A stretch of DNA of 64,000 bases from Phycisphaera sp. (GTDB lineage: Bacteria; Planctomycetota; Phycisphaerae; Phycisphaerales; UBA1924), in the NCBI GenBank assembly GCA_025916675.1, contig CP098402.1, positions 1,421,205 to 1,485,204 on the forward strand, written 5' to 3'. The translations under genes were made by a program, and so were the position numbers. Shown here piece by piece: positions 1-9,119 of the stretch. Each line of letters starts with the position of its first letter. The stretch's first letter is position 1. Under the pieces are notes generated by a model. The model worked only from the letters and a program-made list of their open reading frames with translations, ran no database searches and was not told the origin of the DNA.

Positions 1-1228
1 GGGCCTCGAGCCCCTCGAGCCGCGCCATCGCCGTGGCGTCGGGAGCCAGCGCGCCGGGGTCTTCCAGGCTGAGCCACGTGCGGGCCCGCAGGAATGTGAG
101 CACGGAGAGGCCCGCGCTCGACCGGGCGGTACCGCCGGTGGGCAGCGTGTGGTTGGGGCCGGCGCCGTAATCGCCGAACACCTCGGCGCTGTGCGGGCCA
201 AGGAATACCGCTCCGCCATGGCGCATTCCGGCGGCGAAGGCCTCCGCATCGCGCACAAGGACCTCAACGTGCTCGGCGGCGATCGTGTCGGCCGCGTCTC
301 GAGCCTCGTCAAGGCTTCCCACGACGCACGTAAATCCATTGGCTAGTGCTAGCAGGGCGGTGTCGCGGGTCGGCAGCGCCCTGAGCTGGCGATCGAGCGC
401 GGCCTCCACGGCGTCGGGCATCGATCGATCCGTGGTCACGAGCATGGCCGACGCGTCGGGATCGTGCTCGGCCTGGGCCAGCAGGTCCGCGGCGATGAGC
501 TCGGGATCCGCCGACTCGTCGGCGATGACCAGGAGTTCCGATGGCCCGGCCAGCATGTCGATGGCCACGTCGGCGCTGACGGCGTGCTTGGCCGCGGTGA
601 CCCAGGCATTGCCGGGTCCGGCGATGATGTCTACCGGATCGAAACCGGCAAAGCCGTAGGCCAGGGCGGCGACGGCGTGGGCCCCGCCCAGCGGCAGATA
701 GGCGTCGGCGCCCGACACGCCCGCCGCGGCGAGCATGAGCGGGTCGGTCGAGGGCGAGGCGACGACAACGCGCTCGCACCCGGCTGCGCGGGCCGTGACC
801 GCCGTCATCAGCACCGAGGATGGCAGCGGGTACCGCCCCGCCGGCGCGTAGCACCCCGCCGCTTCGATCGGTACCAGCGTGTGCCCCGCGCGGCCGCCGG
901 TGATAGATGTGTCCAGATCGGTGGTGGTCGCGCGCTGGGCTCGGGCGAAGGTCATGACGCGCTCGGCGGTGCGGTCCAGCACGCCGCGAGTTTCGGCGTC
1001 GAGCCCCGCCAGCGCCCGCTGCAGCGGTTCGGGCCCCAGCAGCAGGGGAGCGTCGGGCGCGACGCCATCAAACCGTTGGGCGTACCGCCGGACGGCCGGC
1101 TCGCCATCGCGGCGCACATCGCTCACGATCTCGGTGGCGCGGATCAGGACATCGGGATCCAGCGCGCCGCGACGGCGCGCGATGTCCCGGGCGTGCTTGA
1201 GTGGCAGCAGTCGTGTGGTGGTTTCCAT
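1..1228 (-). CDS. hisD: Histidinol dehydrogenase, 3' end outside window
   Basis: Catalyses the last two steps of histidine synthesis, oxidising L-histidinol to histidine with NAD. The frame opens at an ATG (complement of 1226-1228) with METTTRLLPLKHARDIARR and stays open to the window edge, about 409 codons of the usual 430. Recognisable HisD segments include GCYAPAGRYPLPSS, the AGPGNAWVTAAK nucleotide-binding region, DMLAGPSELLVIAD and AEHVEVLV. It starts 4 bp after the hisAIE stop and is the last visible gene of the his operon. Only the C-terminal end is missing. Confidence 0.93.
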   Translation of the reverse strand, partial: METTTRLLPLKHARDIARRRGALDPDVLIRATEIVSDVRRDGEPAVRRYAQRFDGVAPDAPLLLGPEPLQRALAGLDAETRGVLDRTAERVMTFARAQRATTTDLDTSITGGRAGHTLVPIEAAGCYAPAGRYPLPSSVLMTAVTARAAGCERVVVASPSTDPLMLAAAGVSGADAYLPLGGAHAVAALAYGFAGFDPVDIIAGPGNAWVTAAKHAVSADVAIDMLAGPSELLVIADESADPELIAADLLAQAEHDPDASAMLVTTDRSMPDAVEAALDRQLRALPTRDTALLALANGFTCVVGSLDEARDAADTIAAEHVEVLVRDAEAFAAGMRHGGAVFLGPHSAEVFGDYGAGPNHTLPTGGTARSSAGLSVLTFLRARTWLSLEDPGALAPDATAMARLEGLEA

Positions 1229-1232
1229 GGGT

Positions 1233-2507
1233 CTATCTCGCGGGCTTGGCGTGGCCCGGCCGGCGGGTCACGCGTTGGGATCGGGCGTCGAGTTCGCCTT
1301 CGATGGTCTCGAGTGACGCACCTTGCGCCCGAGCAGCCACCATGGCGAAGTACAATAAATCGGCAGCCTCATGGGCGGCGTGGCCGGGATCGCGAGCGTC
1401 GGCAAGCTCGGCGGCCTCCTCGGCGAGCTTGGCCGCGAGCAAGCGGCGATCGCCCAGCAGCCGTGCCGTGTACGAGTCCGGCGGTGGGGATTGCAGGCGC
1501 TGGGCGAGGGTCTGATCCAGAGCGGCAAGGCCCGAAGCATCGCCGAAGCAGGTGCGTGTCCCGGTGTGGCAGAAGCCCGGCCCGTGCTGGCGCACGGTGA
1601 ACCGCAGGGCGTCGCGGTCGCAATCGGCAGCAATACCCAGCAGGTCCTGGGTGTGGCCCGAGGCCTCGCCCTTGGTCCAGAGCCCGCCGCGCGAGCGAGA
1701 GTAGTAGATGCCGCGTTCTTGCTCGATGGCGGCCCGAACCGACTCGAGATTCGAGTACACCAGCCCGAGCGTGCGACCACCCGGATCGCACACTACCGTG
1801 GGCCACAGCCCATCGGGCCGATCGCTCCGCAGCGGGGCGCAGAAGCCCTCGGCAAGCCCGAACGCGCCCGTATAGAGCGCCATTCCCACCTGCACATCGG
1901 CACCCAGCCGGTCGAGCGCGGCGATGTCGGCGGGCGTGCGCACACCGCCGGCGACAGTGACGCGCGCGGGGGCGGCGAGGGTGACCAGATCCGCGACGCG
2001 AGCCAGGGTTTCCGGCGAGACTCCGCCCATCCGACCCTCGTGCTCGACGAACGTGATCAGAAAACCGCCAACATACTCGCGCAGGGCCTCGATGCGAGCC
2101 TCGATGGTGTGGCCAGTCCGTTGGGTCCAGCCGTGGCTGACAACCTCGCCATCCCGCGCGTCTACCGCGGCGATCACGCGCTCGCGGGGAAGCTCGCGCA
2201 GGATCTCGGGCCGGGCGGCCGTCCCGAGGATGACCTGGCGCGCACCCGCGTCGAGCCAACGCACCGCAGCAGCCGCGTCGCGGATGCCGCCGCCCACACG
2301 GCAGGGGCTGCGGCGCACGATGTCGGCGATGGCGTCCGAGTTGCTGCCGGTTCCCATCGCGGCGTCGAGGTCGATCACCGCGACCTCGCCCACGAGCCCG
2401 AACCGCCCGGCGATCGGGCGTGGGTCGCCCGCGTCGAGTGCCTGTTCGGCCCCGCCGATGAGCTGGACCGCGTGGCCCGCCCGGATATCGACCGAAGGGA
2501 TGATCAC
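1233..2507 (-). CDS. hisAIE: HisA-HisI-HisE triple fusion
   Basis: A 424-aa protein joining three histidine-pathway activities. Residues 1-232 form a HisA-type (beta/alpha)8 barrel (ProFAR isomerase) with IIPSVDI (Asp7) and AAVDARDG (Asp116) as the likely catalytic acids. Residues 233-330 are a phosphoribosyl-AMP cyclohydrolase (HisI) with YYSRSRGGLWTKGE at 268-281 and zinc ligands in DCDRDA (Cys296), FCHTG (Cys313) and TCF (Cys320). Residues 340-410 are a phosphoribosyl-ATP pyrophosphatase (HisE) with KLAEEAAEL and HEAADLLY. The barrel is divergent: where HisA/PriA usually show T-D/E-x-x-x-DGT, this one has FVEHEGRMGG. HisIE fusions are common, but HisA joined in front is unusual. The start overlaps the hisF stop by 4 bp. 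Confidence 0.93.
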   Translation of the reverse strand: MIIPSVDIRAGHAVQLIGGAEQALDAGDPRPIAGRFGLVGEVAVIDLDAAMGTGSNSDAIADIVRRSPCRVGGGIRDAAAAVRWLDAGARQVILGTAARPEILRELPRERVIAAVDARDGEVVSHGWTQRTGHTIEARIEALREYVGGFLITFVEHEGRMGGVSPETLARVADLVTLAAPARVTVAGGVRTPADIAALDRLGADVQVGMALYTGAFGLAEGFCAPLRSDRPDGLWPTVVCDPGGRTLGLVYSNLESVRAAIEQERGIYYSRSRGGLWTKGEASGHTQDLLGIAADCDRDALRFTVRQHGPGFCHTGTRTCFGDASGLAALDQTLAQRLQSPPPDSYTARLLGDRRLLAAKLAEEAAELADARDPGHAAHEAADLLYFAMVAARAQGASLETIEGELDARSQRVTRRPGHAKPAR

Positions 2508-3256
2508 AATCGCACCTCCACCCCCGCTTGACGCAGGGAGTCTTTGGCCTGGCCCACGGTGAGGACGCCATCATGGAAGATCGAGGCCGCCAGCACCGCA
2601 TCGGCCCCGGCCGTGAGGGCATCGATCATGTGCGATGCCCCCGCCGCGCCGCCTGAGGCGATGATCGAGAGCTTGGTTGCGCGGGCAACACCCGAGATCA
2701 GGTCGAGGTCGTAGCCCACGCCTCGGCCGTCCTCGTCGAAGCTGGTGAGCAGGATCTCGCCCGCACCCGCGTCCATGCCTGCGCGTGCCCAATCCAATGC
2801 GTCGAGCCCGGTGCGATGCGTGCCCGAACGCGTGACGACCTCCCACCCCGACACGGTCCGCGCCGCATCGATGGCCAGCACCACGCACTGGGCCCCCGCT
2901 CTGTCGGCGATCTCGGTCAACAGGGCTGGTCGCTCAACGGCGGCGGAGTTCACGGCCACCTTGTCGGCCCCGGCACCGAGCAAGGCCAGAGCGTGCGCAA
3001 CGCTTCGTACCCCGCCGCCGACTGTCAGTGGGATGGAGAGCGCATCTCGAACCAAGGCCACCGTCTCCAGGGCGGTCGCACGACCCTCGGGCGTGGCCGA
3101 GACGTCGAGGATCACGATCTCGTCGGCGGCCTGTTGTTCGTAGAGCGTCGCCCGTTCCACGGGATCGCCCGCGTCGCGCAGGCCGGCGAATCGCACGCCC
3201 TTCACGATGCGGCCGTCCCGGACGTCCAGGCACGGAATGACACGGCTGGTCAGCAT
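2504..3256 (-). CDS. hisF: Imidazole glycerol phosphate synthase cyclase subunit
   Basis: A 250-aa barrel enzyme that uses ammonia from HisH to turn PRFAR into imidazole glycerol phosphate and AICAR. The chosen ATG gives MLTSRVIPCLDVRDGRIVKG, the canonical N-terminus with catalytic Asp11. The second catalytic Asp is in LLTSFDEDGRG, and phosphate-binding loops VGGGVRS and ASGGAAG are present. The frame is open further upstream, but that part lies inside hisH and is not HisF-like. It overlaps hisH by 7 bp and hisAIE by 4 bp, consistent with translational coupling. Confidence 0.96.
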   Translation of the reverse strand: MLTSRVIPCLDVRDGRIVKGVRFAGLRDAGDPVERATLYEQQAADEIVILDVSATPEGRATALETVALVRDALSIPLTVGGGVRSVAHALALLGAGADKVAVNSAAVERPALLTEIADRAGAQCVVLAIDAARTVSGWEVVTRSGTHRTGLDALDWARAGMDAGAGEILLTSFDEDGRGVGYDLDLISGVARATKLSIIASGGAAGASHMIDALTAGADAVLAASIFHDGVLTVGQAKDSLRQAGVEVRL

Positions 3257-3861
3257 GGCACGGCCTCCTGTTGCATCCATCTCGAGATCAGGCCCGCGCC
3301 CCATGTCCCCGAGAGCTCGGGGTGGAACTGGCAGGCCACCACTCGGCCGCGCTCCAGCCCAGCGATAAACGGCGCGCCAAGCTCGGAGGTGGCGGCGTTC
3401 CAGCCTGCGGGCGTGTTCCGCAGGCCGAAGGAATTGGCGTAATACGCGTACCCCGCGGTTAGCTGCCGGCACTGGGGCGTTGGACTAACCATGTTCCAGC
3501 CGAATCTCGGCCGGGGCGGATTGGCCAGGGCCATGACGCGCGCTTCGATGACGCCCAGGCCTTCGACGCCCGGGGATTCTTCGGAGCTCACGCAGAGCAA
3601 CTGCATTCCCAGGCAGATGGCCAGCGTCGGCCGATCGGCTTCTACACGCCGGCGGATGGGGTCGATCAGGCCGAGCGAACGCAAGGCGGCCATGCCCTCG
3701 GCGAACGCGCCAACGCCGGGGAGTACGAGGAACTCGGCAGACTCGACCTCTGCGGGTCCGGTCGCCAGACGAACAAGCCCCCCGCGGCGGCGCACGGCGG
3801 CGCTGACCGAGGCGACATTCGCGACGCCGGTCATCACGATGGTGACGGTGGGGGGGCTCAC
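3250..3861 (-). CDS. hisH: Imidazole glycerol phosphate synthase glutaminase subunit
   Basis: A 203-aa class I glutamine amidotransferase that feeds ammonia to HisF. The nucleophile is Cys83 in ICLGMQLLC, and the His/Glu pair is in FHPELSG (His180, Glu182). LPGVGAFAEGM is the usual oxyanion-side motif. The N-terminus reads TGVANVASV where most HisH proteins have DYGxGNLxSV, a modest divergence. It overlaps hisB by 4 bp and hisF by 7 bp. Confidence 0.95.
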   Translation of the reverse strand: MSPPTVTIVMTGVANVASVSAAVRRRGGLVRLATGPAEVESAEFLVLPGVGAFAEGMAALRSLGLIDPIRRRVEADRPTLAICLGMQLLCVSSEESPGVEGLGVIEARVMALANPPRPRFGWNMVSPTPQCRQLTAGYAYYANSFGLRNTPAGWNAATSELGAPFIAGLERGRVVACQFHPELSGTWGAGLISRWMQQEAVPC

Positions 3862-4448
3862 AGGGTGCCTTTCGTTGAGGGGACCGTTCGTGCGGTCGGG
3901 TCGATGGCAACCGCTTGACGCAGTGCCAGCGCGAGGGCCTTGAAGGCGGCCTCGGCGCGGTGGTGGTCGTTATCGCCGCGCAGCACGTCCACGTGCAGGG
4001 CGCAGCGGGCGCTCATCGCCAGCGGGATGAACCAGTGGTCAATGTTCTCGCACGCCAGATCGCCGAGGCGGTCGCGCTTCAACCCCAGATCGATGCGGGC
4101 GCAGGGACGGCCGGAGAAATCGATAACGACCCGGGCCAGCGCCTCGTCGAGCGGCGCGTAGGCGTGCCCGAACCGCGTGATGCCGCGGCGGTCGCCCAGG
4201 GCTTCGTCGATGGCTGAGCCCAGCACGATGGCCGTGTCCTCGGCGGTGTGGTGGTCATCGACGACGAGGTCGCCCTCGCACCGCAGTTCCAGATCGATGC
4301 GGCCGTGGCAGGCGAGCGCCCCGAGCATGTGGTCGAGAAAGCCGATGCCCGTGGACACGTCGCACGCGCCCGAGCCGTCGAGAGAGAGCCCCCCCTCGAT
4401 CGAGGTTTCGTTGGTCTTGCGCGTGAATGTGGCGGTTCGCTCAGGCAT
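3858..4448 (-). CDS. hisB: Imidazoleglycerol-phosphate dehydratase
   Basis: A 196-aa monofunctional IGPD that dehydrates imidazole glycerol phosphate to imidazole acetol phosphate. The manganese-binding His/Glu motifs are intact: FLDHMLG, DDHHTAEDTAI, FGHAYAPLDEALAR and DNDHHRAEAAFKA. The start MPERTATFTRKTNETSI fits the family. The longer open frame upstream is hisC in another register. It overlaps the end of hisC by 8 bp and hisH by 4 bp. No phosphatase domain is fused. Confidence 0.96.
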   Translation of the reverse strand: MPERTATFTRKTNETSIEGGLSLDGSGACDVSTGIGFLDHMLGALACHGRIDLELRCEGDLVVDDHHTAEDTAIVLGSAIDEALGDRRGITRFGHAYAPLDEALARVVIDFSGRPCARIDLGLKRDRLGDLACENIDHWFIPLAMSARCALHVDVLRGDNDHHRAEAAFKALALALRQAVAIDPTARTVPSTKGTL

Positions 4449-5490
4449 GGGTCGTCTCCAACGCGAGTCGCAGGCGATCGAAGGCGGCTTCGTCGCCGGG
4501 CAGGGTGATGCGGGTCCAGCCGTCCAGATCGGGTCGGCCGCTGAAGGTGCGGACACGGACGCCGCTGCGCCGCAAGGCCTCCAGGGCATCGGACGGCAGG
4601 CGCGTGAGCACGAAGTTGGCAGAGGATTCCAGAACGTCCCAGCCTCGCGATCGCAACTCGGCGGTCAAGGTGGAGCGTTCGTGGCGCACGCGATCGATGG
4701 TGGCCGCACGCGGCACCGCGAGAGATGCACCAGCCACAGCCAGCGAGGGGCCGGCGACCGGATACGGGCCCCCAACGGTGCGCAGCCATCGGGCGACAAC
4801 GGGCGGGGCGATCGCGTAGCCCACGCGCAGGGCCGCAAGGCCGAAGGCCTTGGAGAAGGTCCGTGTGATGACGACGTTGCCGATATCGATGAGCGTGGTG
4901 GTGGGGTCCTTGTCGGCGAACTCGATGTACGCCTGGTCGACCATCAGCAGCCCGCCCACCCGACGCAGGGCGCTGGCGACCTCCTCGATTTCGTCGATTT
5001 GCACCAGGCCCCCGGTTGGGTTGTTGGGCGAGACGATCGCCGCGAGCGACGTCGCCGGCGTGATGCGCTCGATCATCGCCCCAACAGGGAACGGGCCGCC
5101 CATCCACGGGCACCGATCGATGGCCGCGCCCGCGAGCCGGCCGCTGCGCTCGATCATCTCGAACGTCGGGGCGTGCACCAGCAGCCGGCGGCCCGGCTCG
5201 AGCACCGCCCGGCACAGGCGGTCGATCGCATCGTCGGCACCGGCGGTCACAATGACCCGCTGCGGCGAAACGCCCAGGTCGTCGGCCAGCCGGGTTTCGA
5301 GCGTTCCCGCGTCGGGGTAACGCCGCGGGTCGTCGGCTCGCACCGTGCGGAGGATCGACAGGGCGCGCTCGTCGACGGGCGGGCCCTCGTTGGCGTCCAG
5401 CAGGAGTTCGTCGCCCGATCCGCGACCGGGCGGGGCGTAGGGCTCCAGGCCCTCGAGCCTGGCGGCGGGTTGGGGCATCGCGCCGCTCAT
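4441..5490 (-). CDS. hisC: Histidinol-phosphate aminotransferase
   Basis: A 349-aa PLP-dependent class I/II aminotransferase that converts imidazole acetol phosphate to histidinol phosphate. PLP-site motifs are SPNNPTGG (Asn157), VDQAYIEF (Asp185, Tyr188) and TRTFSKAFGLA, with the Schiff-base Lys at 214. LDANEGP near residue 32 is the HisC substrate-side motif. It overlaps hisG by 4 bp (5487-5490). Confidence 0.95.
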   Translation of the reverse strand: MSGAMPQPAARLEGLEPYAPPGRGSGDELLLDANEGPPVDERALSILRTVRADDPRRYPDAGTLETRLADDLGVSPQRVIVTAGADDAIDRLCRAVLEPGRRLLVHAPTFEMIERSGRLAGAAIDRCPWMGGPFPVGAMIERITPATSLAAIVSPNNPTGGLVQIDEIEEVASALRRVGGLLMVDQAYIEFADKDPTTTLIDIGNVVITRTFSKAFGLAALRVGYAIAPPVVARWLRTVGGPYPVAGPSLAVAGASLAVPRAATIDRVRHERSTLTAELRSRGWDVLESSANFVLTRLPSDALEALRRSGVRVRTFSGRPDLDGWTRITLPGDEAAFDRLRLALETTHA

Positions 5491-6425
5491 GGCACGATCT
5501 GCTCGGGCCGCGAGACCACGATGTCGGTGCCGCCCAGTTGCTTGATGAGGGGGATGACCCCGGCCAGCTCCTCGCGCCGCACGGCGGCCTTCACGGCGTA
5601 GCCCGAGTTGGAGCGCAGCGGTGACACGGTGGGCTCACGCATGCACGGCAGCGCTCCCACCACGGCGTCGAGGCGTTCGGCCGGCACGTTCACCTCCAGC
5701 ATGGCGCGCTGCCGGGCCTCCAGGACCGAGCCGAGCAGCAGGGCGAACCGCTCGATGCGTTCACGCGCCGCCGGCTCGGCCATCGCCGCCCGAGAGGCGT
5801 ACAGCCGCGTGGACGACACCATCAGCTCATCGATGATGGTCAGGCCGTTGGCCACCAGCGTCGCGCCCGTCGCGGTGTTGTCGACGATGCAGTCGGCGTC
5901 CTCGGGCGGCAGCACCTCGGTCGCGCCGTACGAGCACAGCACCGTGGCGTCCAGCCCCCGGTCGGCGATCCACCTTCGGGCCAGGCCCTCGTACTCCGAG
6001 GCGACGACCAGCGGCCGATCCGGCAGCGCGCCGCCCACCAGCAGCGCAGCCGGGGCGGCGGCGATGAGCCGCACGGTGTCCAGCTTCGTATCGAGCACCT
6101 CGACCAGTTCGGCGCCGGTCTCCTCGACCCAGTCGGCCCCGGCGAAACCGGCATCACGCCGGCCGGTGCGCAGCATCTCGACGATCGCCCGCGGCTTGAG
6201 CAGCTTCACGTCGAAGGCTTCGCTTGGCGTGGCCGGGCTGGAGAGGGCCGGGCGGTAGTCGCGGGCGCCCGCTCGCAGCGGCATGCCCGCATCGGCGAGC
6301 AGTTGCGCCACGCCCACGTGCATGCGTCCCTTGGGCAGCGCCAGGCGGATGGCCGCCGCGCCGCGCCCGGGCCCGGTCGTCGGCTCGTGTGTCGTCGAAG
6401 GGACAGGTTGTATCGAGGTCGTCAT
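5487..6425 (-). CDS. hisG: ATP phosphoribosyltransferase, long form
   Basis: The first committed enzyme of histidine synthesis, condensing ATP and PRPP. The PRPP-binding signature EDADCIVDNTATGATL is clear. After it comes a C-terminal domain ending MLEVNVPAERLDAVV...GTDIVVSRPEQIVP, the HisG_C regulatory fold. This is therefore the long form (about 312 aa) that binds histidine itself and needs no HisZ. The ATG at 6425 (MTTSIQPV) is chosen because GGAG lies about 11 nt upstream and the frame above it runs through the attenuator. Residues 1-25 are a poorly conserved extension before AIRLALPKGRM. Confidence 0.94.
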   Translation of the reverse strand: MTTSIQPVPSTTHEPTTGPGRGAAAIRLALPKGRMHVGVAQLLADAGMPLRAGARDYRPALSSPATPSEAFDVKLLKPRAIVEMLRTGRRDAGFAGADWVEETGAELVEVLDTKLDTVRLIAAAPAALLVGGALPDRPLVVASEYEGLARRWIADRGLDATVLCSYGATEVLPPEDADCIVDNTATGATLVANGLTIIDELMVSSTRLYASRAAMAEPAARERIERFALLLGSVLEARQRAMLEVNVPAERLDAVVGALPCMREPTVSPLRSNSGYAVKAAVRREELAGVIPLIKQLGGTDIVVSRPEQIVP

Positions 6426-6491
6426 CGGGAGAAGCTCCGCTGTGCGGGCTTCGGGCCAGAGCCTTCGTAAATGGGTACGCCCCACAACGAA

Positions 6492-6516
6492 GAACGCCGG
6501 CTCGAAGCCGGCGTTC
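6492..6516 (-). terminator. his attenuator hairpin
   Basis: A perfect 10-bp stem (gaacgccggc, 6492-6501, with gccggcgttc, 6507-6516) and a 5-nt loop. On the minus strand it is followed by a pyrimidine-rich stretch, TTCGTTG. It lies between the His-rich leader peptide and hisG, where an attenuator terminator is expected. The bases just before and in its 5' arm (6511-6521) can pair with 6575-6584 inside the leader codons, a possible antiterminator. That pairing was judged by eye, not computed. Confidence 0.75.
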
Positions 6517-6554
6517 GCATCTGGAGAACCTACGTGCGGTCCATCAGTCCAGAG

Positions 6555-6620
6555 TCATAGCCAGCCCCTGCGGGGATGCGTCGCGTGGCCATGGTGGTGA
6601 TGGAAGCAGGTCTGGAACAT
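6555..6620 (-). CDS. hisL: Histidine operon leader peptide
   Basis: A 21-codon frame, MFQTCFHHHHGHATHPRRGW plus Leu and a TGA stop. Six histidines fall within residues 7-15. It sits directly after a promoter and 39 bp before the attenuator hairpin of the his operon. Ribosome stalling at the His codons when charged tRNA-His is scarce is the classic way such leaders favour read-through. No Shine-Dalgarno site is visible. The -10 box ends only 9 nt before the ATG, so the transcript may be nearly leaderless. Confidence 0.85.
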   Translation of the reverse strand: MFQTCFHHHHGHATHPRRGWL

Positions 6621-6629
6621 GTCGTGCGA

Positions 6630-6657
6630 AGATTAGCCGGCATCGAACCCCGGTCAA
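6630..6657 (-). promoter_or_regulatory. his operon promoter
   Basis: On the minus strand TTGACC (complement of 6652-6657), a 16-nt spacer and TAATCT (complement of 6630-6635) resemble a sigma70 promoter. It lies immediately upstream of the leader peptide, with the expected transcription start about 0-3 nt before the leader ATG. Confidence 0.65.
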
Positions 6658-6700
6658 GCGAGCGTGGCGAGCGTGCTGGGCAAACCCGATCGGCGCGCAG

Positions 6701-6732
6701 GAAAACGGGAGGCGCCGCCTGGCGGGCCTCCC
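6701..6732 (-). terminator. Terminator of the FnIII-like gene, copy 1
   Basis: Arms gggaggc (6707-6713) and gcctccc (6726-6732) form a GC stem. Read on the minus strand it is followed by GTTTTCC. It lies 34 bp beyond the stop of the gene at 6767-7441. Confidence 0.6.
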
Positions 6733-6766
6733 CGAGTGTTCTTGCTGTTCGTGCGGCGCGGGGTCG

Positions 6767-7441
6767 CTACGCCGCGGCGGCCATCGGCCCGCCCTCGCTG
6801 CCCAGGTTGCCGAAGTCGAACGGCGCCGGGATGCTCCAGGGGCTGGCCACGCCGCTGCTGAGGGTCGCGCGCACGCGGTACTCCATGCGGCGCTGGCCCA
6901 CGGGCACGGCCTCGTCCAGGTGCTTCTTGTCGCCCACGGTGGCCAGGTGCTGCCAGCCGGCGCCCTCGCCTTCCAGCGGCGTGGCCCGACGCTGGATCTC
7001 GAACGTCGCGCCCGCGCCGGCGGTCACCTTGAAGGTGAACAGGATCGAGCCGTCGCTGGTGGACTCGGTGGCCAGCTCGGTGGGCTGGGGCGGCCCCTCG
7101 CGCGGGGCGGGCGGCTTGGGCGGGTCGATCAGGGCGCGGCTGTAGACGCCGGGGTCCTCGCTGGTCTTGGCGTAGGCCTCGATGGTGTCGATGAGCCCGC
7201 CGAGGTTCTTGCGCAGGGCCTTGATGGCGGTGCGCTTGTCGTCGAAGGCCGCCTTCGCTTGGGCATCCTGCGTGATGGCGTCGCCCAGGGTGGTTTCGGC
7301 TGTGCTCAGCAGCGCCGAAGCGGCGGCGACCTGATCGGCCGTGACGCCGATATCGGGCGGCGAGCCCTGCCCGGCCCAGGCGGCCAGACGCTCGGTGCTC
7401 CAGTTGATGAGGTCGGCGTCCTTGCTGGGCAGTCGTGCCAT
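6767..7441 (-). CDS. Helical plus FnIII-like protein, copy 1
   Basis: A 224-aa protein of unknown function, one of three paralogues here (others at 40579-41229 and 55933-56601). Residues 1-120 are mostly helical with a shared pattern: LINWSTERLAAWAG, then AAASALLSTAETT, then an alanine/lysine-rich helix leading to IEAYAKTSEDPGVYS. A proline-rich linker follows. Residues 135-215 resemble a fibronectin type III beta-sandwich (SILFTFKVTAGAGATFEIQR; MEYRVRATLSSG). The end is a short glycine/alanine tail. No signal peptide is seen. GGGAA about 9 nt upstream supports the ATG at 7441; a longer in-frame start at 7486 is less likely. Confidence 0.75.
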   Translation of the reverse strand: MARLPSKDADLINWSTERLAAWAGQGSPPDIGVTADQVAAASALLSTAETTLGDAITQDAQAKAAFDDKRTAIKALRKNLGGLIDTIEAYAKTSEDPGVYSRALIDPPKPPAPREGPPQPTELATESTSDGSILFTFKVTAGAGATFEIQRRATPLEGEGAGWQHLATVGDKKHLDEAVPVGQRRMEYRVRATLSSGVASPWSIPAPFDFGNLGSEGGPMAAAA

Positions 7442-7744
7442 GTCGGTCGTTCCCTTCGGGCGGCCGCGACCGATCGGTTGCGCCAATCGCTCGCGCCGGT
7501 GGTTTCGGTCCCACCACTCGGCCGCCCGGTGCGGCCGGTCGCGGGTTTGAGGGATGTATCGACGGCGCCGGATGGGGGCTTGAGTCCGGTTGCGATGGAT
7601 CTCATGAATTTCGTGGTAGTGGGGTCATGGATCGGATGGAATCGGGGCTGGCGGGGCGTGGGGACGGTTCTTATTGGCCGCTTCGCCCACTCCGGGGGGC
7701 ATTTCATGGGAGGCCACTCCCATGTGGGTTTTGGCTCGACGAGC

Positions 7745-7848
7745 CCCCGCCGTGAGGCGGGGTGGCCCTTTGCTCTCCTTCCGAGCCGGCGGCGTGAGCC
7801 CCCGGCCCTGGCTCTCCTCCTTCCGAGCCGCGCTGCGTGAGCACGCGG
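7745..7848 (+). repeat. Three GTGA-loop hairpin repeats
   Basis: Three hairpins each follow a CGAG flank and close on the same GTGA loop: ccccgcc-gtga-ggcgggg (7745-7762), gccggcggc-gtga-gccccc (7785-7806, one mismatch) and ccgcgctgc-gtga-gcacgcgg (7828-7848, one bulge). The stems differ but remain paired, so the shape is conserved more than the sequence. Further members are at 11592-11611 and 55277-55296. They resemble REP-type palindromes. Confidence 0.7.
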
Positions 7849-7874
7849 GCCACTCCGTGGCGGGCTCGCTCCCT

Positions 7875-7893
7875 CCCCCGCTCCCAGCGGGGG
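7875..7893. repeat. GC-rich hairpin, class 2
   Basis: cccccgct (7875-7882), loop ccc, agcggggg (7886-7893). The same stem recurs, longer and with a GGG loop, at 11086-11110 and 11553-11575, so this is a second small dispersed palindrome type. Confidence 0.6.
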
Positions 7894-7982
7894 CATTCCA
7901 TGCAGGATTGGGGCCACCCGAACCGAGGTCGGAGGGGTGCGGTGGGTCTAAGAGCGCAAGCGAGCATGTTTGCCATCACTCG

Positions 7983-9119
7983 TCATGGCTTGAACCGCTC
8001 GAACGCCTCGCCATCGAACGTGTACGCCCCGCCATTGTGCGTGCCAAGCCACAAGTTGCCGTGATTATCTTTGGAGATGGCGAACACGGTGATCGTGGTC
8101 TCGCCGTCCCTGATGGGGAACTGGGTCGCTTGCTCACCATCGTATCGGAAGGCGCCCCCGGCGAAGGCGGCCGTCCAAACCGTGCCGGCATCGTCCTCGA
8201 CGACCGACATGCCCTCGACGATCCTGCCTTCGGCCCCATCCTGCACGATGCCAAAGTCCTTGACCGATCGGAAACCATCGAACCAGGCCTGGCCGGTGTA
8301 CGTGAACCAGAAGTTTCCCTTCGAGTCTTCGAGGATGGAGCGCACGGGCTCCTCCACGAGCGTGCTGTCGGTGAACCAGTGGAAGCTCGTCCCGTCGAAG
8401 CGGCACACGCCCACGCTGCTCGAGCCGAACCAGAGGTTGCCCCGGCTATCTTTCAGGATGGAGTAGACGTCGTAGGGGCTGTAGGTCGCGTGTGGGAACT
8501 CCGAACGCGGCATCCTCTCGAAGTGCTCGTCGCCGAGCTTCGTCGTCGGGAACCGCAAGCGATGGAGTGTTGTCCCGTCGTAGCGGAAGACCACGCCGGC
8601 GTCGGGCGGCCCCACGAACCACAGGTCGTCCGGTTGTAGCTTCCATTGCTGGGCATCGGTCTGGGCTTGGGCATCGGCCGGGGCCTCCAGCGTCACGAAC
8701 GCCTGCCCGTCGAACCTGCTGATGCCCTCGTATGTCGTGAAGTAGATGTTCCCGTGCGTGTCTTCCTGGATGCCCCGGATGCGGTTGCTGGCCAGCCCAT
8801 CGTCGGTGGTGAAGTTAACGAGTGTGTGCCCGTCGTAGCGGTACACCCCCCGGTCGTTGCTGCCGAACCAGTAGGTGTCGTCCGCAGCTTGGAAGACGTA
8901 AAAGATCGCCGGATCGAGCTCGACCACGACCCGGCCTTGGGCGATGGTCGCCCCGTGGTCGCTGCCGCTGGCCTGCCGCTCGGGCACGGCGGCCGGATGC
9001 TTGTCTTGCCCGTCGCCACACGCGGGAAGCGCGGCGAGAAAAACCAGGGCGAGAAGAGCGCTCTGGTGGCACTTGTTTCCACGTGGCAAGTGGGTTCTGC
9101 GCGTCCGATGGGGTGGCAT
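7983..9119 (-). CDS. Lipoprotein with regulator-propeller repeats
   Basis: A 378-aa exported protein. The chosen start MPPHRTRRTHLPRG leads into a hydrophobic stretch and the lipobox LPAC, so it should be a lipid-anchored envelope protein. The rest consists of beta-propeller blades of the two-component-regulator type: NIYFTTYEGISRFDG, NLWFGSSSVGVCRFDG, NFWFTYTGQAWFDG and NLWLGTHNGGAYTFDG, with linking turns such as DGLASNRIRGIQEDTHG. No kinase or output domain follows, so it is not a complete sensor kinase. A ligand-binding or scaffold role is an inference. Confidence 0.8.
   Translation of the reverse strand: MPPHRTRRTHLPRGNKCHQSALLALVFLAALPACGDGQDKHPAAVPERQASGSDHGATIAQGRVVVELDPAIFYVFQAADDTYWFGSNDRGVYRYDGHTLVNFTTDDGLASNRIRGIQEDTHGNIYFTTYEGISRFDGQAFVTLEAPADAQAQTDAQQWKLQPDDLWFVGPPDAGVVFRYDGTTLHRLRFPTTKLGDEHFERMPRSEFPHATYSPYDVYSILKDSRGNLWFGSSSVGVCRFDGTSFHWFTDSTLVEEPVRSILEDSKGNFWFTYTGQAWFDGFRSVKDFGIVQDGAEGRIVEGMSVVEDDAGTVWTAAFAGGAFRYDGEQATQFPIRDGETTITVFAISKDNHGNLWLGTHNGGAYTFDGEAFERFKP

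Follow-up and report, generated by a model that had tools for sequence, protein, structure and literature searches.

A putative histidine attenuator on a probably leaderless message upstream of hisG in planctomycetes

How might a planctomycete couple transcription of its histidine operon to the supply of histidine? Attenuation of his is the textbook case in enterobacteria, and the locus described here carries, ahead of hisG, a short reading frame crowded with His codons. In the portions of PMC9413887 available to us, His-rich leaders are treated as established attenuators in gammaproteobacteria and as predicted ones in some Firmicutes. The window (the whole stretch of 64,000 nucleotides from Phycisphaera sp. 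that was analyzed, to which all coordinates refer) comes from a genome that consists of one contig of 3.62 Mb. Its operon runs on the minus strand in the order hisGCBHF-A/I/E-D, with a promoter, a leader open reading frame (ORF), and a hairpin following one another 5' of hisG. The genes are as follows.

5487 to 6425, minus strand: hisG, ATP phosphoribosyltransferase with a HisG_C domain (Pfam; TIGR00070 above its cut-off; ATG at 6425)
4441 to 5490, minus strand: hisC-like aminotransferase (best profile TIGR01141, under its cut-off)
3858 to 4589, minus strand: hisB (IGPD; profile match from about residue 50, ORF probably over-extended)
3250 to 3861, minus strand: hisH (TIGR01855 above its cut-off)
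2504 to 3472, minus strand: hisF (best profile TIGR00735, just under its cut-off; match from about residue 73, ORF over-extended)
1233 to 2507, minus strand: hisA-hisI-hisE fusion (His_biosynth, PRA-CH, and PRA-PH domains)
2 to 1228, minus strand: hisD (Histidinol_dh; the gene runs past the window edge)

The closest named matches to the HisG of the window, at 73% identity, are L092 and L093, from metagenome-assembled genomes (MAGs) labelled Phycisphaeraceae and Phycisphaerae. Upstream of the leader, a 239-amino-acid ORF (6767 to 7486, minus strand) has no Pfam or NCBIfam match at E ≤ 0.001; judged by eye, it is followed by a GC-rich hairpin and TTTT near 6735-6697, an arrangement consistent with a separate transcription unit. 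The first-pass annotation had described a promoter, a 21-codon His leader, and a 10-bp hairpin before hisG, and all three were found again when the sequence was re-read, with the following anatomy.

6652 to 6657, minus strand: -35 element TTGACC (sequence reading)
6630 to 6635, minus strand: -10 element TAATCT (sequence reading; 16-nt spacer from the -35 element)
About 6624 to 6620, minus strand: predicted transcription start (placed by promoter spacing)
6555 to 6620, minus strand: leader ORF of 21 codons, MFQTCFHHHHGHATHPRRGWL (ATG 6620-6618, TGA stop 6557-6555; no evident Shine-Dalgarno sequence)
6576 to 6602, minus strand: His codon run HHHHGHATH, the putative sensing codons and protector, segment 1 (sequence reading; His-region shuffling in the fold model)
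6560 to 6568, minus strand: left strand of the predicted antiterminator, GGGGCUGGC, segment 2, in the last leader codons (duplex, swap, and fold tests)
6504 to 6512, minus strand: right strand of the predicted antiterminator, GCCGGCUUC, segment 3, sharing bases with the 5' arm and loop of the terminator (duplex, swap, and fold tests)
6492 to 6516, minus strand: terminator hairpin GAACGCCGGC-TTCGA-GCCGGCGTTC, segments 3:4 (arms 6516-6507 and 6501-6492, loop 6506-6502, 10 bp)

Six His codons fall within residues 7-15 of the leader peptide. When the host genome was searched for a pattern of promoter, start codon, and CAYCAYCAY, four distinct places were returned, the his leader among them, and the backward control returned none. 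Rfam family RF00514 (His_leader) was absent from the matches obtained at E ≤ 5 for positions 5000-9000 of the window, where ARAGORN likewise found no tRNA, and a scan of five related loci brought no Rfam family to its gathering threshold.

A search of the family matched the HisG of the window in 86 of 163 genomes at E ≤ 0.001 (60 of the 112 of good quality), and because only this many match, histidine synthesis may have been lost or replaced in about half of the family. We could use 83 of the 86 upstream regions; G153 was set aside for a contig edge and a broken match, and G103 and G134 were set aside at 119 and 62 nt. Scored by His codons in any 10 codons, with TTG starts allowed, a leader is present in 80 of 83 at a threshold of at least three, in 78 at four, and in 75 at five. 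In the comparison with 20 dinucleotide shuffles, at least five His in 10 codons occur in 74/83 regions against a shuffle mean of 0.05 (the shuffle mean at four or more is 0.8 of 83). The next-best residue at the threshold of at least five is Ser, with 10/83, and at four the next residue reaches 21/83. The His codons are under selection, and the leader peptide is otherwise variable among the family genomes. By reading, two of the three upstream regions below threshold (G087 and G018) have a leader-like ORF with two His; the third is G032.

Both the His run and the hairpin, which the first-pass annotation had expected to recur in related leaders, are thus kept in the family, and together with the specificity for His they lend its his-attenuator reading support at the level of sequence. 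Since a His leader and a matching hairpin precede hisG in nearly all of the family relatives that have hisG, these bacteria probably sense histidine shortage by means of a stalled ribosome. From sequence comparison and modelled folding, we consider it very probable that the element controls the his operon by ribosome-mediated transcription attenuation on a leaderless message.

The leaderless geometry was assessed with a start codon rule blind to promoters, which takes the ATG or GTG that most closely precedes the stretch densest in His. Under this rule, 65 of 78 family leaders have TTGA[CT] at -40 to -33 relative to their start codon, and in any other 8-nt bin within 160 nt it is seen in at most 5/78; TANNNT lies at -16 to -9 in 46/78, and both promoter elements are present in 39/78. 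Shine-Dalgarno-like 4-mers occur in just 6 of 79 leaders, a count made with a leader chooser that favored -35 elements, not with the blind chooser used for the promoters. Promoter elements held at a fixed distance from the start codon lead one to expect a leaderless mRNA, so that transcription probably begins on the leader start codon or no more than a few bases from it, and the leaderless message suggested in the first-pass annotation gains support as a prediction; it is from this spacing that we infer the actual 5' end. An attenuator whose leader mRNA has another promoter or a longer 5' untranslated region, and hence is not leaderless, would account for the 13 of 78 family leaders that lack TTGA[CT] at its usual place, but it does not fit the sharp -35/-10 peak or the near absence of Shine-Dalgarno sequences, and we regard it as unlikely.

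Structure statistics were computed for 77 of the 80 leaders (G035 was left out, as were G015 and G162, whose called hairpins looked wrong), and in these the hairpin follows the stop codon at 21-50 nt (median, 34). With hairpins picked blind to T, the 8 nt 3' of the stem hold a mean of 3.9 T, compared with 1.0 before the stem (79 genomes); a terminator chooser that favors T gave a biased value of 4.6, and the blind choice falls at the same hairpin place in 69/79. The family average is therefore that of an intrinsic terminator with a U-tract, although in the window the stem is directly followed by TTCGTTGTG, in which the tract is interrupted by C and G. This imperfect tract could instead point to a His-rich ORF that acts through Rho or translational coupling, the hairpin being a processing or stability element, and a parallel exists in mycobacterial cys leader regions, which, in the part of PMC1262725 available, lack conserved terminators and for which its authors weakly suggest Rho. 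Against such a role for the hairpin stand the T enrichment after the stem, the covariation of the terminator arm with the leader end that is described below, and the position of the window hairpin, which ends 66 nt short of hisG and therefore does not cover the hisG start; we judge this explanation to be distinctly unlikely.

For the attenuator, a second fold that competes with the terminator is needed, and the first-pass annotation had placed it between 6575-6584 and 6511-6521. The complementarity it noted is present (duplex of 6584-6575 with 6521-6511, -12.9 kcal/mol), but the pairing conserved in the family is another, that of 6568-6560 with 6512-6504 (-16.4 kcal/mol), the fold that the RNA of the host genome also adopts in the modelled stalled state. 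In the set of 77 genomes, the mean duplex energy between a genome's leader end and its terminator arm is -20.8 kcal/mol, compared with -15.3 kcal/mol when the leader ends are shuffled; the native duplex beats the shuffle mean in 75/77, with p ≤ 0.05 in 44/77. Arms taken from other genera yield -19.3 kcal/mol, the own arm being better in 52/77, and when arms were swapped among 39 genomes, each representing a different genus, 1 of 5000 permutations did as well as the native pairing; the swap test on single genomes is weak, with the own arm among the best 5% in 11/77. Synonymous recoding of the last eight codons gives a mean of -16.9, and the native codons do better than the recoded mean in 70/77 (p ≤ 0.05 in 15/77). 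At several 2:3 positions the base pair differs from genus to genus, taking the forms GC, TA, AT, and CG, in a count limited to the pairs chosen by the duplex program. Judged by these comparisons, the predicted antiterminator pairing covaries between genera. RNAalifold, applied to 8 relatives, returned almost no covariation term and missed the antiterminator; it is uninformative here because the element has alternative folds, and the swap, shuffle, and recoding tests were used in its place.

How the two folds depend on the ribosome was modelled on RNA made as far as the terminator loop, the measure being occupancy of the terminator 5' arm by upstream sequence relative to shuffled controls. With a ribosome at the first His codon, the arm is occupied at 0.77 (control, 0.57; higher in 73/77), and with the ribosome at the middle His codon, at 0.79 (control, 0.60; higher in 74/77). 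A ribosome at the stop codon lowers occupancy to 0.35 (control, 0.42; higher in 29/77), and without a ribosome it is 0.51 (control, 0.56; higher in 31/77). When the His region alone is shuffled in the ribosome-free RNA, occupancy rises from 0.51 to 0.66, with an increase in 69/77. The protector role of the His codons rests on this shuffling; a direct duplex of these codons with the segment after the stop is near chance (p ≤ 0.05 in 7/77). In the model, these occupancies correspond to the three states of a classical attenuator, in which terminator and antiterminator exclude each other and the position of the ribosome decides between them.

The sequence of events that we propose would begin with transcription initiating on the leader AUG or at most a few bases away from it, and a ribosome would accordingly load on the RNA 5' end without a Shine-Dalgarno sequence. 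Were charged His-tRNA scarce, this ribosome would stall on the His codons (segment 1) and leave segment 2 (6568-6560) free to pair with segment 3 (6512-6504) before the 3' arm of the terminator is made, and RNA polymerase would read through into hisG. Were His-tRNA plentiful, the ribosome would reach the stop codon and cover segment 2, and the 3:4 hairpin (6516-6492) would end transcription; with no translation at all, the His codons would tend to hold segment 2 off segment 3, again favoring termination. When the full RNA is folded to equilibrium after a stall, the probability of the terminator exceeds 0.5 in 58/77 genomes (first His) or 54/77 (middle His) and is 0.98 in the host genome; since the terminator usually dominates at equilibrium, the switch must act kinetically, during transcription. 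We infer termination and read-through in vivo, and their response to histidine, from this modelled behavior.

A related arrangement occurs upstream of trpE in the same genus, where 5/6 genomes (a raw count without a shuffle control) have a Trp-rich ORF whose GW(L/W)WRW motif holds three or four Trp. TTGA and GGCATAAT lie at similar distances 5' of its ATG, and GGCATAAT is conserved just before the ATG. The loci are L249 (G000:C1, upstream of trpE near 1242007 and outside the window; leader sequence MSTAASKSALPAGRKCGWLWRWRMGRGALGARAGRLSA), L247, L250, L252, and L253. Among the 12 of 15 trpE matches examined, the other seven loci (one in the remaining same-genus genome, six in genomes from other genera) have no Trp leader. 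A host-genome pattern that required TGGTGG was discarded: its 20 places, set against 8 in the backward control, did not include the trp leader. At the sequence level, the Trp leaders suggest that leaderless attenuation is not limited to his in these planctomycetes. They also bear on the possibility that the His leader encodes a functional micropeptide, for example a metal-binding one, with the hairpin merely a terminator or spacer. His runs can bind metals, but such a function does not predict a Trp-rich equivalent before trpE. Also against it are the location of the ORF ahead of hisG, a peptide that is variable apart from its His, and last codons matched to the terminator arm more closely than the peptide sequence requires (better than the recoded mean in 70/77), and we find a micropeptide very improbable. 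A search for ilvB in relatives gave a match over the cut-off in 1/13 genomes. The best match in G000 to the acetolactate synthase profile TIGR00118 (L261) is under the cut-off, at 351 versus 538 bits, hinting that branched-chain synthesis is missing or that the enzyme is divergent.

Where the first-pass annotation had treated the attenuator as a feature of this one DNA, its description stands and its scope widens, to the family, a sister family, and other phyla. In the sister family, of the same order, 4/4 HisG upstream regions have the leader. The HisG proteins of two other families of the order are more distant (32-35% identity, five compared), and in 30 upstream regions scanned from the 54 matching genomes of this distant type in the order, none has at least three His in 10 codons. 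Elsewhere in the phylum, 22 genomes outside both leader-bearing families match HisG at E ≤ 1e-60, and 16/22 are flagged at three His, a raw scanner count without a shuffle control in which G302 looks spurious and the start of G543 is doubtful, and in which G327, among the six genomes not flagged, is truncated. Other planctomycete families also carry a His leader before hisG.

Among 80 named hisG loci, the scanner finds a match at four His in 51, of which L163 looks spurious. All nine loci labelled Spirochaetota, Spirochaetes, Spirochaetae, Spirochaetales, or Treponema have the leader, and single flagged loci bear labels such as Deltaproteobacteria, Armatimonadetes, Krumholzibacteriia, and Pirellulaceae. 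One of 12 loci labelled Myxococcales or Myxococcota is flagged and looks spurious, and none of five labelled Alphaproteobacteria or Rhodospirillaceae is flagged (one with just 177 nt upstream); the near absence in these two groups means that the leader is not tied to the window-type HisG lineage everywhere. MAG labels can err (L114, labelled Cyanobacteria, is a contig of the family genome G050), and the named and genome sets are not independent, as they share many contigs (e.g., L092 is G006 and L114 is G050). A broader reading, that leaderless attenuation is general for amino acid operons (his and trp at least) in these planctomycetes and that the his attenuator has spread as a portable module of operon plus switch, together with one lineage of HisG, through Planctomycetota, Spirochaetota, and perhaps other phyla, we advance tentatively, giving it a little less than an even chance.

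Like enterobacterial hisL (Rfam RF00514), the element has a short ORF with a run of His codons before the his operon and a terminator and antiterminator that exclude each other; it differs in its leaderless geometry and in an antiterminator formed between the terminator arm and the final codons of the leader itself. It likewise resembles the his attenuators predicted in Firmicutes (the Bacillus cereus group, Peptostreptococcaceae and Lutispora, and Erysipelotrichales), which combine a His leader, a terminator, and an antiterminator before his genes; these belong to a different phylum, and leaderless starts are unmentioned in the available portions of that report (PMC9413887). For leaderless ribosome-mediated attenuation, a parallel in form is trpL of Sinorhizobium meliloti, whose attenuated RNA begins at the leader ATG and which, unlike the planctomycete leader, concerns Trp, belongs to an alphaproteobacterium, and has been studied experimentally (PMC7298713, in the parts available). 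The leaderless polycysteine short ORFs of mycobacteria (Canestrari 2020, as described by its title and by texts that cite it) also place a run of sensed codons where it affects a downstream operon; they differ in their amino acid (Cys), in their actinobacterial hosts, and in the want of a conserved terminator hairpin noted above for cys leader regions. The ilvBNC leader of Corynebacterium glutamicum, to go by the title of Morbach 2000, has an attenuator peptide made without a ribosome binding site; it serves branched-chain amino acids in an actinobacterium. The available text of PMC4833913 mentions planctomycetes just for the distance from leader to next gene, and our literature search, which covered few subscription papers, yielded no recognized description of such an attenuator in Planctomycetota or Spirochaetota.

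The attenuation logic itself is known; what is new is the combination of a His leader, leaderless geometry, these phyla, and a separately built antiterminator. Textbook his logic would thus run on seemingly leaderless messages in other phyla through an RNA switch of separate construction, which makes it testable whether ribosomes that load on bare 5' ends can be coupled to RNA polymerase tightly enough to permit attenuation. The spacing from promoter to ATG offers a simple handle for finding further such leaders.

Two groups of leaders depart from the common form. Six Spirochaetota-labelled ones (L115, L116, L118, L121, L124, and L140) share the peptide HLHHHGH, followed by a terminal AVxMIV(I/L)P, and the region 5' of their hairpin is arranged differently. 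In one genus of the family (L052, which is G087; L054, G088; L047, G089; and L062, G090), leader position, promoter, and terminator are kept while the number of His has fallen to 2-4, Gln and Cys having replaced it, e.g., VTKALHQLQHCMKPHAKSVCR; the leaders of this genus are perhaps decaying or re-targeted.
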